Program-made: the position numbers and the translations under genes
The notes under the pieces: generated by a model
Told to the model about the DNA's origin: nothing
Databases searched by the model: none
What the model saw: the letters and a program-made list of their open reading frames with translations, nothing else
Shown: positions 53,101 to 58,829 of the stretch, in pieces
Position numbering within the stretch: position 1 is the first letter of the stretch
Layout of the letters: the number at the start of each line of letters is the position of its first letter
IMG/VR virus record: IMGVR_UViG_3300030328_003717
Coordinates: 1 to 60,364 of that record
DNA: 60,364 nucleotides
Direction: 5' to 3' (one strand)
From: a virus

Positions 53101-53902
53101 ACAAACATTGGGAGTGGTTCCAACCAAAGAACAGGTCGACACTTTGACTGAAGATTGGATTGGAGACGGAAACTTTACATACAAACCTGGTTCTCTTTTA
53201 AAACTTGGTTTAATGAGCCGTGATGATATTGGAGATCCAGAAATCGGTGATTTGGGGCAAAGAATACAAACAAGGTTGAATAAAATTCAAGACACTGCCG
53301 CAGAATGGAACAAAAAAGATGTTGCTGCGTTGTACAAACCGTATTTTGAAGAGGCCATGGTACACAGCCCAGCGCTTTTTGAGTTATATAAAAGAGCGTC
53401 TGATGAGAGTAACCTACCAAATTTAAACGAGTTTGCTGACCTTAAATTAATGGAGTCTCAAGCCACGGCGACGGGTCGTGGTGTAACTCCTGATATGCCT
53501 TTAAAGAAAGACTGGCCTAGGGCTATGGTTCAACTTACGATTGTGAAAAGTCTCATGCACGATCCCAATGTGACTCACCTTTATATTCCTACTGCAAGTA
53601 AGGGAGGCGGTCCAACAAGTCCTTACTTAGACGCTTTTAATGAAGCAGAACAAATATCTGAACAGTTTGATTTGGATTTTAAAAAGATATTTGATTTTAT
53701 AGGAGAGGTGAAAGATCCAGAAACAGGACGGACAGTGGAAAAACCCGTAGATGTTTTTGCATTGGAAATCGCACCGCTTCGAGAAATGCTTATCGAAGGT
53801 GGTGGATTTGAAGGTAAGATGCAGAAAGGCGGTTTGGTCAAAGGCTCTTCACCTGTGCATGAAGTTCTAAACCTAGGCGATTACGGACGTAGGTTTATTT
53901 AA
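50162..53902 (+). CDS. Second giant polyvalent/ejection-like protein (1246 aa)
   Basis: ATG 50162 is chosen; GTG 50147 is an alternative. The N-terminal region (about 80-240) is Gly/Ala-rich and hydrophobic (GSLATRAGGAAIGATAGPVSMAVGALLG) and resembles residues 125-260 of the protein at 34978. Long charged helical parts follow, including THHWTGDGTLAWMRGG and a C-terminal KGGLVKGSSPVHEVLNLGDYGRR. Such proteins may be packaged and ejected. It is outside the virion operon. Confidence 0.6.
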   Translation: MATTPKDTSLSSAFRYAIDQPLENMATTFQALGMKDWEKFMRDIVEEPENYEAAAGEFINAQGEGFNWEYFPRAIFEQAGQIAGSLATRAGGAAIGATAGPVSMAVGALLGPALFEAVQIAGPVALERAKNEGREEPNWEDWTGALGTAAASGVLNAVGIKNVGVLNSIGKGTLKQAGKQTVKAGVAEGSTEGLQGATEQIGGSALTAQGLQFDPKAAVGEGLLGAGAGTGTQIGTQTVGQIAPPTQDGTLGANLFTKLFGKKKDTQEVVEEVVEETPVVSQDEERQARIEQAQINARVTAESLYPNLIKAYEPSEIDFLEIGATQMSNGNVDAQSFDEIFPKILSTAEQFGIKEEDVVPFVKRIMGKVSTDDAYLIVPEYTDDERLVGLDENAILDFVAESAKGYYDEVKSSRPEMYLNKPKIKGKDIYNKPPLLKVEGISQDIHQFDPDFPRGATPPLGMVKPRFSEEQSDILLNSKQGMVEPTLFSYSKFLSPENPLLANFPKKGVPADEALKLLNIELAPGEGKKSHGMFKPAKNKNSLFATRAIEGKIADFLLNKGKETVTKQDIIDRYVNHLSAFNGILLSDAGRTVDRDDYTSFAIPNLDERFDRDTYFGNRYLEIVKEELEKVDAPRTLIDTLNEDPDDVETRILEFPAQQDMEMQNKLDDAKEKADERMAGIVSLNSMFFPSEQSKGRPIEPYTPKHGASMQTFSEFQGNGTPELRRLGEDIEVVLNYDAELDPEGEASLSQLPPDIDLTAPMNQQLRRIATYQEEIKRRDPDYYSFKDSTHHWTGDGTLAWMRGGMFSHGPDGKYKNTKGVNMTEVQSGAHGWVQSTRPSYSDFIYKSKAGGTKLTRKEFDKLENGYMFDRAIDQLQAVAFPSAPGAALFSLLPDFNRNVFLKPSAVRDLNVGPSAYVSVLKEILPSNIYTNLKNSGELRENMKKASDMYADYGRSIAEAEFTRSRTPALGTTTIGGMLRQTLGVVPTKEQVDTLTEDWIGDGNFTYKPGSLLKLGLMSRDDIGDPEIGDLGQRIQTRLNKIQDTAAEWNKKDVAALYKPYFEEAMVHSPALFELYKRASDESNLPNLNEFADLKLMESQATATGRGVTPDMPLKKDWPRAMVQLTIVKSLMHDPNVTHLYIPTASKGGGPTSPYLDAFNEAEQISEQFDLDFKKIFDFIGEVKDPETGRTVEKPVDVFALEIAPLREMLIEGGGFEGKMQKGGLVKGSSPVHEVLNLGDYGRRFI

Positions 53903-54164
53903 AAAAGTCTTCGTCTTCTACAACAACGGCCCACTCACCACTAAAAGGTATAAACCCTAAACAACAAGGGATTTCTTGTTCCTCGTATATTTTGTATGCC
54001 GTTAAAGCAGACAATTGACTCTCAAAGAAATGAATTATGGGTGAATGCGTTGGCAGCTCTCCTCTGTATGTTTCTTTTGGGTCAAGAAAGTCTTTGGTGT
54101 ATTGCGCTGTTGTATGACTTAAAAAGTCTGCGTCTTCTTTTGTGTAATAAATTAATGTGTTCAT
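53895..54164 (-). CDS. Hypothetical protein (89 aa)
   Basis: ATG at 54164 with AGGAG 7 bases upstream. The product starts MNTLIYYTKEDADFLSHTT; no domain recognised. It overlaps the convergent giant gene by 8 bases. Its 155-base leader is heavily structured. Confidence 0.65.
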   Translation of the reverse strand: MNTLIYYTKEDADFLSHTTAQYTKDFLDPKETYRGELPTHSPIIHFFESQLSALTAYKIYEEQEIPCCLGFIPFSGEWAVVVEDEDFFK

Positions 54165-54191
54165 AGTATGCTCCTAAATATGTGTTTAAGT

Positions 54192-54307
54192 GGTGTGGCC
54201 TCATTGTTTACTAAAATCCACTTGGGAGAACTAAGCGCTAATCTTTAGTAAACTTTTTCCTACGAACTGAGACCACCTCTTATCCGTATAACTTAACGCG
54301 CTTAGTT
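54192..54307 (-). promoter_or_regulatory. Structured leader with interleaved inverted repeats
   Basis: GTTTACTAAA (54206-54215) pairs with TTTAGTAAAC (54244-54253). AACTAAGCGC (54229-54238) pairs with GCGCTTAGTT (54298-54307). The arms are interleaved, so both together would make a pseudoknot. A third stem, GTGG-CTCA (54195-54203) with TGAG-CCAC (54268-54276), encloses the first. No gene is seen in 54165-54319. Its place before the leftward gene at 54164 suggests a regulatory RNA leader. Confidence 0.6.
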
Positions 54308-54319
54308 ATAGTTAATTGA

Positions 54320-54472
54320 CTAAGTATATAAAATTAGTCCCATACATACAAGTATAATTGTGGATAAAAATACGTCGAGTAGGAATTGTACAATTTGACG
54401 TTCGTTGAGTTTTTTAGGGACGAAGGACCAAGGACTTTTGGTCATTTCCCACAGTTTTCTTACTGTTTCCAT
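54320..54472 (-). CDS. Small membrane protein (50 aa)
   Basis: ATG at 54472 with GGAG 8 bases upstream. The basic N-terminal half (KSPWSFVPKKLNERQ) is followed by one membrane helix (FLLDVFLSTIILVCMGLILY) at the C-terminus. Function unknown. Confidence 0.6.
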   Translation of the reverse strand: METVRKLWEMTKSPWSFVPKKLNERQIVQFLLDVFLSTIILVCMGLILYT

Positions 54473-54534
54473 GTGGTGCACTCCAATTTATAGGCATAAA
54501 GGTTTAATTTCTAGGGGTTTTGTGTTGATTTATC

Positions 54535-54808
54535 CACCGCACCTCAAAAAAACGTAGAAGTTCACTAAAAGTTAGGTAAAAATCGAGGTATGGTACGCCC
54601 GAAACCCTTTAAAATCAAGGGGTCTTGTTTTCCTATATAGACAACTACAACCTAACCTGAACTTCTGTTTTTGAGATTTTACAAAAGACTAATCAGAATT
54701 TTTTTTCAAAAAGTGAGGTGCGGAGGTGCGTTTTGGACGAAAGCCTTTGTTTATAGGGGTTTTCACCTAACCTGAGTGAGGTGCGGTGGAGGTGCGGTGG
54801 GTGCGGTG
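54535..54808. repeat. Iteron-like repeats, candidate pac site or origin
   Basis: GAGGTGCGGTG occurs exactly at 54778-54788 and 54789-54799, with near copies at 54715-54723, 54723-54730 and 54799-54808, and as its exact reverse complement at 54535-54545. CCTAACCTGA is repeated at 54651-54660 and 54766-54775. The stretch 54473-54851 has no gene. It lies immediately before terS. Confidence 0.75.
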
Positions 54809-54815
54809 AAATATC

Positions 54816-58092: not shown

Positions 58093-58524
58093 GTGGCTAA
58101 AAAAGAATCTTTATTTTGGAAAAAAGTCAAAACGAATTTGAAGTCGTTTCGGCTGATACGCATTGAGTCATGGGTTAATCTAGGTATTCCTGATGTATTG
58201 GGGGTGTCCCCAGCTGGCGTGTACTTTACTGCTGAACTTAAAGTAACCCAAAGTAACAAAGTTTCGCTATCGCCGCACCAGATCGCATATCACGAAGAGA
58301 GAGCAGACGCACCCGCTTTTATCCTGGCCCAGGCCCTCCGCCCTTCTACCCCCAGAAAATTTACGATGCACCTCTATCATGCGTCCCAGGTCGAGTCGTT
58401 GGTCGTCCATGGGCTAAAAACAGAGCCTATATGGACCGGGGACCAAGGTTCTTGGGCCGAGCTCGAAGAAACATGGACCAAAGCCCTTAGAAATCCAATC
58501 AGCCGCTTCTTTATTCTGCCGTAA
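58093..58524 (+). CDS. VRR-NUC/Hjc-like PD-(D/E)XK nuclease (143 aa)
   Basis: A GTG start with no ribosome site. Active-site pattern: E25, GIPDVLG (D34), FTAELK (E48, K50) and SPHQ (Q63). This is the layout of small VRR-NUC or resolvase-like nucleases. An extended -10, TGATACACT, ends 9 bases before the GTG, so the mRNA may be nearly leaderless. It may cut branched DNA for packaging. Confidence 0.75.
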   Translation: MAKKESLFWKKVKTNLKSFRLIRIESWVNLGIPDVLGVSPAGVYFTAELKVTQSNKVSLSPHQIAYHEERADAPAFILAQALRPSTPRKFTMHLYHASQVESLVVHGLKTEPIWTGDQGSWAELEETWTKALRNPISRFFILP

Positions 58525-58526
58525 CC

Positions 58527-58567
58527 TGTGGATAACTAACCACAAACTGTTAATAACCTGTGGATAA
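58527..58567. promoter_or_regulatory. Two perfect DnaA boxes
   Basis: TGTGGATAA at 58527-58535 and 58559-58567, 32 bases apart (about three helical turns), each within ACCTGTGGATAACT. The DNA between is AT-rich. They immediately precede the hairpin repeat cluster, so they may mark a replication origin. Confidence 0.7.
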
Positions 58568-58568
58568 C

Positions 58569-58812
58569 TGCTTGCTTGTCTGTTCTGGCAAAAGAGCTGC
58601 CGTCTGGGCCAGCCTGGCAGCAGGATCCGCCGTGCTTGCTTGTCTGTTCTGACAAAAGAGCTGCCGTCCCTGGGCCGCTGCTGGTGCATCTAACGTAGCT
58701 ATTGGTGCTTGCTTGTCTGTTCTGACAAGCGATCGGCAGCCCGCGGTCTGCTAACGCATCTGTGCTTGCTTGTCTGTTCTGACAAGAGATCGGCAGCCCG
58801 TCTGGTGCAGCG
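58569..58812 (+). repeat. Dispersed hairpin repeat cluster, copies D-G
   Basis: TGCTTGCTTGTC starts at 58569, 58633, 58706 and 58763 and continues TGTTCTGRCAA. Copies F and G fold as GCTTGTC/GACAAGC (58711-58717, 58724-58730) and CTTGTC/GACAAG (58769-58774, 58781-58786). Each is followed by a GC-rich segment with its own dyad, for example GCTGCC...GGCAGC in copy D. No coding sequence accepted here. Confidence 0.85.
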
Positions 58813-58829
58813 GGTTGTAAAAACAAGTG

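Follow-up and report, generated by a model that had tools for sequence, protein, structure and literature searches.

The present study describes a conserved minus-strand RNA of a marine phage lineage, most likely the leader of a C5-cytosine DNA methyltransferase gene, in which four of the five helices form two intertwined pseudoknots. The RNA was found in the window, the whole stretch of 60,364 nucleotides of viral DNA that was analysed, where it spans positions 54186-54307 on the minus strand; another 14 IMG/VR records also carry it. In 13 of these 15 records it stands directly before the start of the methyltransferase gene, as a leader pseudoknot beside the ribosome site of its own gene; the exceptions are the window itself, from which the gene has been deleted, and one close relative (L002). 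The decisive evidence for the RNA is covariation among its homologues rather than the statistics of its repeats. We file the element as a new family among the structured leaders of phage mRNAs, with an unusual double-pseudoknot fold, and the leader probably controls the amount of methyltransferase made.

Results

Source and genomic setting

The source of the window is a marine phage. The large subunit of its terminase shares 55-61% identity with the subunits from Pelagibacter phages HTVC027P and HTVC023P, and 61% with those from phages 023Pt_psg01 and DSL-LC04. The region that holds the element is non-coding, as the initial annotation had described it. An ORF of 53 aa with a hydrophobic C-terminal half (54320-54481, minus strand) adjoins the leader and is kept in 14 of 14 contigs compared, with 83-94% identity; neither this ORF nor the 89-aa ORF downstream had a match in Pfam or PHROG. 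A sigma-70 promoter ahead of the leader was considered for the candidate -10 box in Table 1 and rejected, as the -35 element matches at only 3 of 6 positions and the site is absent from the promoter-scan hits, the number of which on the window is no higher than chance.

Three further features of the surroundings were observed. First, short repeats resembling GAGGTGCGG are clustered at 54712-54810 on the plus strand, just upstream of the gene for the terminase small subunit (TerS), and could be a packaging or replication site. Second, one short motif (QNRQAS / LLVCSDKR) recurs in ORFs of both strands at 58414-58826, which suggests an array of DNA repeats and not a gene. Third, an ATG within the conserved leader sequence AATGRGGCCAC starts a short frame (window 54082-54204, minus strand) that is 40 aa long in the window and, by reading, spans 12 codons in L005 and 5 in type B (the second of the two sequence types defined below); since its length is not conserved, it is probably not a leader peptide.

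Table 1. Features of the leader and its surroundings in the window, in the 5' to 3' order of the minus strand
Feature	Position	Strand	Remark
Candidate -10 box TATACT (TATAAT in L014)	54323..54328	-	sequence only; 17 nt after TTGTAT at 54346-54351
P1 5' arm AACTAAGCGC	54298..54307	-	pairs with GCGCTTAGTT, 10/10
P4 5' arm TTAAGT	54291..54296	-	weak helix, 6 bp here
P5 5' arm TATACGGAT	54282..54290	-	hairpin; P3 5' arm in its loop
P3 5' arm GTGGTCTCA	54268..54276	-	pairs with 54195-54203
P5 3' arm GTTCGTAGG	54259..54267	-	pairs with P5 5' arm
P2 5' arm GTTTACTAAA	54244..54253	-	pairs with TTTAGTAAAC, 10/10
P1 3' arm GCGCTTAGTT	54229..54238	-	inside loop of P2
Unpaired CTCCC in P2 loop	54224..54228	-	in 7/7 sequences; possible anti-Shine-Dalgarno
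P2 3' arm TTTAGTAAAC	54206..54215	-	pairs with P2 5' arm
P3 3' arm TGAGGCCAC	54195..54203	-	pairs with P3 5' arm
P4 3' arm ACTTAA	54186..54191	-	pairs with P4 5' arm
9-bp repeat TTAAACACA, deletion site	54181..54189	-	one copy in window
Methyltransferase 3'-end remnant KHIFRSIL*	54161..54187	-	identical to C-terminus in L004/L005
Shine-Dalgarno GGAG of 89-aa gene	54171..54174	-	from sequence
89-aa ORF, downstream of leader	53895..54164	-	ATG 54162-54164

Helices and fold of the element

The initial annotation had reported two interleaved, perfect 10-bp inverted repeats, and both pairs of arms (P1 and P2) are indeed complementary at all ten positions. The third stem that it placed around the first repeat is also present, as P3 (GUGGUCUCA/UGAGGCCAC), with 9 bp including one U-G that pairs in the minus-strand RNA only. 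From 54307 down to 54186 on the minus strand, the 5' arms of P1, P4, P5 and P3 are followed by the P5 3' arm, the P2 5' arm, the P1 3' arm, the CTCCC loop and then the 3' arms of P2, P3 and P4. P5, which we added to the stems named before, is a 9-bp hairpin whose 14-nt loop holds the whole P3 5' arm, with zero nucleotides between this arm and the P5 3' arm; P5 and P3 thereby make up a second pseudoknot of the H type. The hallmark of this type, a helix whose loop supplies an arm of another, together with compensatory change, was found for both P5/P3 and P1/P2, with P5/P3 and P2 counted on alignment A4 and P1 read directly in all seven distinct sequences.

Across the 60-kb window, no other perfect 10-bp repeats interleave within 130 nt as P1 and P2 do. 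The claim that such an arrangement is far beyond chance is fair locally: when the 116-nt segment was shuffled 20,000 times, interleaved perfect 10-bp repeats never arose. For a search across the window the figure is about 1%, as 2 of 200 dinucleotide shuffles of its full length contained an interleaved 10-bp pair anywhere. Folding energy alone is a weak witness for the structure, the nested fold being only mildly more stable than shuffles on the minus strand (z -2.08), with z -1.76 on the plus strand.

Covariation and strand

Members were gathered through DNA patterns and protein searches; 33 matching loci collapse to seven distinct sequences, 148-154 nt long as cut out, on which all counts are made, and the other matches of that loose search are non-members and were left out. 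The seven fall into two types, A (window, L002, L004, L005 and L010) and B (L023 and L056). Compensatory changes in homologues had been set beforehand as the test of the RNA, and such changes between the two types were found for all three stems of the initial annotation as well as for P5, supporting a conserved pseudoknotted RNA. For P5, P3 and P2 together, 99.0% of 196 cells of A4 pair, compared with a mean of 93.9% in shuffled alignments (0 of 500 as high) and only 34-44% in slid versions of the helices. In six pairs of these helices both partners changed (mean of 2.8 in shuffles, 4 of 500 of which reached six), and the covariation score of 0.255 was equalled by 0 of 500 shuffles. The number of further pair types showed no excess (11, with 12.3 in shuffles). 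An earlier count, in which P5 was shorter, agreed with these results. Because all 15 records belong to one lineage, this covariation is essentially one divergence between types A and B plus a few single changes.

The individual helices contribute as follows. In type B, both bases of four P2 pairs have changed, and one P2 pair is broken in L056. P3 pairs in 63 of 63 cells, with one pair changed from UA to CG. In P5, a CG pair became UA on both sides in two of the seven sequences, and one pair (columns 24/53) is broken in the window. The ends of P1 are shifted by a few bases and are out of register in A4, so this helix was read directly and not counted: in the five type A sequences it is AACTAAGCGC/GCGCTTAGTT, with one C-to-U change in L005 that yields a G-U pair, and in the two type B sequences it is GCCAACGC/GCGTTGGC; the helix is fully paired in either type. 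Shuffling the type B flanks 20,000 times produced an 8-bp match of the P1 kind in 138 and 170 cases, for a search stretch that is wider than the P2 loop. The type B P1 5' arm (L056:1853-1876, also in L023) lies within the last codons of a pyrimidine-dimer glycosylase gene (...DLANAS*), so this helix is also under coding constraint there. P4 consists of six invariant pairs in all seven sequences, extended to 9 bp in type B; being invariant, it is uninformative on covariation and is kept as tentative.

The sense of the RNA was also evident from the pairs. Over the five helices, 274 of 276 cells pair on the minus strand, compared with 263 on the plus strand; for the four added P5 pairs, by arithmetic from the table of pairs, the counts are 28 of 28 and 13 of 28. 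The G-U pairs thus hold the helices in minus-strand RNA only, and the RNA sense is the minus strand. This result bears on a reading at the level of DNA, in which the repeats act in duplex or extruded form as an operator or as a methylation-sensitive, recombination or packaging site. The element lies near TerS, the methyltransferase resembles HhaI and HaeIII, and GCGC occurs in type A and GGCC in all seven sequences, all of which speaks for this reading. However, the strand-specific G-U pairs, the lack of GCGC in type B P1 and interleaved pairs with no evident role in duplex DNA make this reading very unlikely.

The methyltransferase gene and its loss in the window

The methyltransferase belongs to PF00145 (E 1.7e-52 and 5.5e-50 for two members), and the HhaI and HaeIII methylases are among its closest solved relatives by sequence; the L009 contig stops 27 codons into the gene. 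As read from the sequences, 6-7 nt separate the end of the conserved fold from the methyltransferase GGAG. The initial annotation had set the repeats before a small gene, and in the window the 89-aa ORF does lie downstream; this arrangement is a derived state, the RNA belonging to the lost methyltransferase gene. The small gene was accordingly rejected as the primary partner, as in L003-L005 the methyltransferase gene ends just before the 89-aa gene and the element lies upstream of the methyltransferase gene. In the same three loci TTAAACACA occurs twice, at the end of the leader and near the methyltransferase 3' end, 915 nt apart. The window has a single TTAAACACA, with the leader before it and the last methyltransferase codons after it, which indicates a deletion between the two copies that left the leader standing before the 89-aa gene. 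A search for a methyltransferase in the rest of the window record returned no match, although an empty search answer is weak evidence. Relatives of the 89-aa gene were found in four loci, and one of these, L002, bears an almost identical element. The leader is intact without the methyltransferase in both the window and L002, apart from the one P5 pair lost in the window.

Among the best 80 of 279 relatives, methyltransferases at 71% identity or less are without the leader; thus, the enzyme in general does not need it. Unrelated leaders with a repeated GGGGCGA were seen in Pelagibacter phages HTVC134P and HTVC309P and in the uncultured phage S42-C7 (L015:1412-1495 and L017:1390-1466), before methyltransferases that are about 62-64% identical. 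In HTVC134P (L015), the methyltransferase start is immediately preceded by one GGGGCGA copy at the ribosome site, and this leader is possibly a second, different control element.

Spread of the element

As far as searched, the family occurs in a single phage lineage, since its members share the 53-aa ORF, TerS (near full length and 96-98% identical in 13 of 14 contigs compared, the fourteenth being cut there) and a 1251-aa gene (matched in 9 of the 14). The element is carried by 12 of 80 methyltransferase loci (best 80 of 279 relatives) and was absent from the other 68 and from five phage-record loci, model R1 giving nothing better than E 8.4 over these 73. Likewise, it is carried by 4 of 80 pyrimidine-dimer glycosylase loci (best 80 of 223), and R1 found no element in the other 76, with nothing better than E 1.9. 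Pattern scans of viral contigs gave, among the matches listed, no members outside the lineage; the element was absent from L007, from the non-member loci among L099-L129 and from L130-L135, and L226-L334, among the matches listed, reached a best E of 4 with the model. A pattern scan of genome contigs returned 11 stretches, none with the element, and searches of phages and plasmids returned nothing beyond pieces of 21-24 nt resembling chance. More divergent members could have been missed by these searches. Against Rfam 15, the covariance-model check gave no match for the window or its homologues at the gathering cut-off; relaxing the limit to E 10 brought up miRNA, snoRNA and lncRNA models and no others, all scoring far below that cut-off.

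Between the types, the leaders are 76-79% identical and the first 600 nt of the methyltransferase gene 90-94%. Either the helices change more quickly than the gene, or leaders are exchanged with unsampled relatives. A cassette at two genome positions was considered and rejected, as the locus has the same neighbours, TerS and the 53-aa ORF, in the contigs compared; all that varies is a pyrimidine-dimer glycosylase gene, which some have and others lack between this ORF and the RNA.

The constancy of the locus is relevant to a further explanation, namely that the RNA acts in trans or stabilises the mRNA and that the methyltransferase gene is a mere neighbour. The RNA is still folded in the two phages without the gene, which favours this explanation. 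However, their retention of it may simply be recent, and the element is present in one copy in each of the eight member records searched whole and always at the same locus wherever it can be placed, so that we regard a trans-acting or stabilising role as decidedly unlikely.

Discussion

Herein, we propose that the element is a structured, cis-acting leader of the methyltransferase gene that sets translation initiation, most likely through autogenous binding of the enzyme, a proposal that we hold with somewhat more belief than doubt and that draws on analogy. In this mechanism, the leader of about 125 nt would form the 5' part of the methyltransferase mRNA and would fold into two H-type pseudoknots, the P5 loop pairing downstream as P3 and P1 joining the 5' end to the P2 loop. 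The folded leader would then set translation initiation, an effect that is the natural inference from a fold that stops so close to the GGAG. Methyltransferase in excess may bind its own folded leader, as gp32 does in T4. Both the action on translation and the enzyme as effector are inferred, and autogenous control is preferred on the link to the methyltransferase gene together with the analogy to T4 gene 32; the persistence of the RNA in two phages without the gene weakens this autogenous part. As a broader and more tentative possibility, rather less probable than not, the element may represent a new class of double-pseudoknot leaders through which the synthesis of a phage DNA methyltransferase is governed by the enzyme itself or by its cofactor SAM/SAH. 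On this reading, with helices that change much faster than the gene, related phages may have leaders that are orthogonal in sequence and equal in fold.

Two known operators resemble the proposed one. According to a passage of PMC3014915, T4 gp32 binds a pseudoknot 67 nt upstream of its own start codon. The present leader shares with it a phage mRNA, a pseudoknot upstream of the start codon and the gene of a DNA-binding protein. It differs in its two intertwined pseudoknots with helices of 9-10 bp, in an unrelated protein whose binding is only putative, and in that no A+U-rich cooperative region is shown. The same source mentions the E. coli rpsO (S15) operator as an autogenous translational leader pseudoknot (PMC3014915). 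A leader pseudoknot in a translational operator is common to both, autogenous in S15 and only proposed as such here. The S15 element includes the translation start, whereas the present fold ends 6-7 nt before the Shine-Dalgarno sequence.

A switch between two exclusive folds was also considered, in which P1 and P5 with CUCC paired to the Shine-Dalgarno sequence (off) would alternate with P2 and P3 (on). In the nested ensembles of L005 and L010, the invariant CUCC pairs with the Shine-Dalgarno sequence at 0.92 and 0.96, P1, P5 and this pairing having probabilities of 0.85-0.99, and forcing P2 and P3 with the P1 and P5 arms blocked frees the Shine-Dalgarno sequence (0.56-0.94 per base), which speaks for a bistable leader. 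However, this behaviour is not common to all, because the nested ensembles of L023, L056 and the window consist of P2 and P3, with the CUCC pairing at 0.0. In comparison with shuffled leaders, the masking counts (of 300 shuffles) were 7 for L010, 36 for L005, 88 for L004, 248 for L023, 219 for L056, 274 for the window and 271 for L002. Masking is thus above chance in one of seven leaders (L010); it was rejected as a shared mechanism, and the proposed mechanism is not built on it. Moreover, type B keeps P1 although its probability as a nested alternative is 0.0, which argues that P1 and P2 form together; in these models, their joint formation explains the type B P1 better than alternative folds, and a bistable switch is rather unlikely.

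A small-molecule riboswitch that controls methyltransferase translation, with SAM or SAH as the obvious ligands, would suit the position of the leader ahead of the gene for a SAM-dependent enzyme, and the conserved unpaired nucleotides amid varying helices (CTCCC, AA between P2 and P3, and the purine-rich P5 loop) are likewise in its favour. SAM-II and SAM-V are pseudoknotted SAM riboswitches, and the present leader is like them in placing a pseudoknot near the ribosome site, here of a gene encoding a SAM-using enzyme. However, it is much larger and contains two pseudoknots, and neither the window nor its homologues match Rfam, the SAM/SAH families included. Metabolite riboswitches usually spread across several genes and hosts, whereas this element was found, within the searches made, before one gene in one phage lineage. 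A riboswitch appears unlikely.

The compact topology also resembles that of a self-cleaving ribozyme or of a structure that serves mRNA processing at the transcript's 5' end, since double pseudoknots occur in several small ribozymes; HDV-like and twister ribozymes are nested double pseudoknots, and the present leader likewise holds two pseudoknots in about 100 nt. The conserved nucleotides differ, and so does the order of the helices, P3 closing before the P1 3' arm in HDV; with no match to an Rfam ribozyme, this explanation is most improbable. No description of the RNA was found in the literature searched, a body that does not include the 224-motif survey, and a term search of PMC9599517 and PMC12753301 returned no mention of a methyltransferase.

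The element is a covariation-supported pseudoknotted RNA without an Rfam family that is tied to a phage DNA methyltransferase. If it does control the methyltransferase, it would be the second phage example of a leader pseudoknot of the gene 32 type and would reveal a way for phages to dose a DNA-methylating enzyme. The window would also show a regulatory RNA stranded before another gene once its own gene was deleted.
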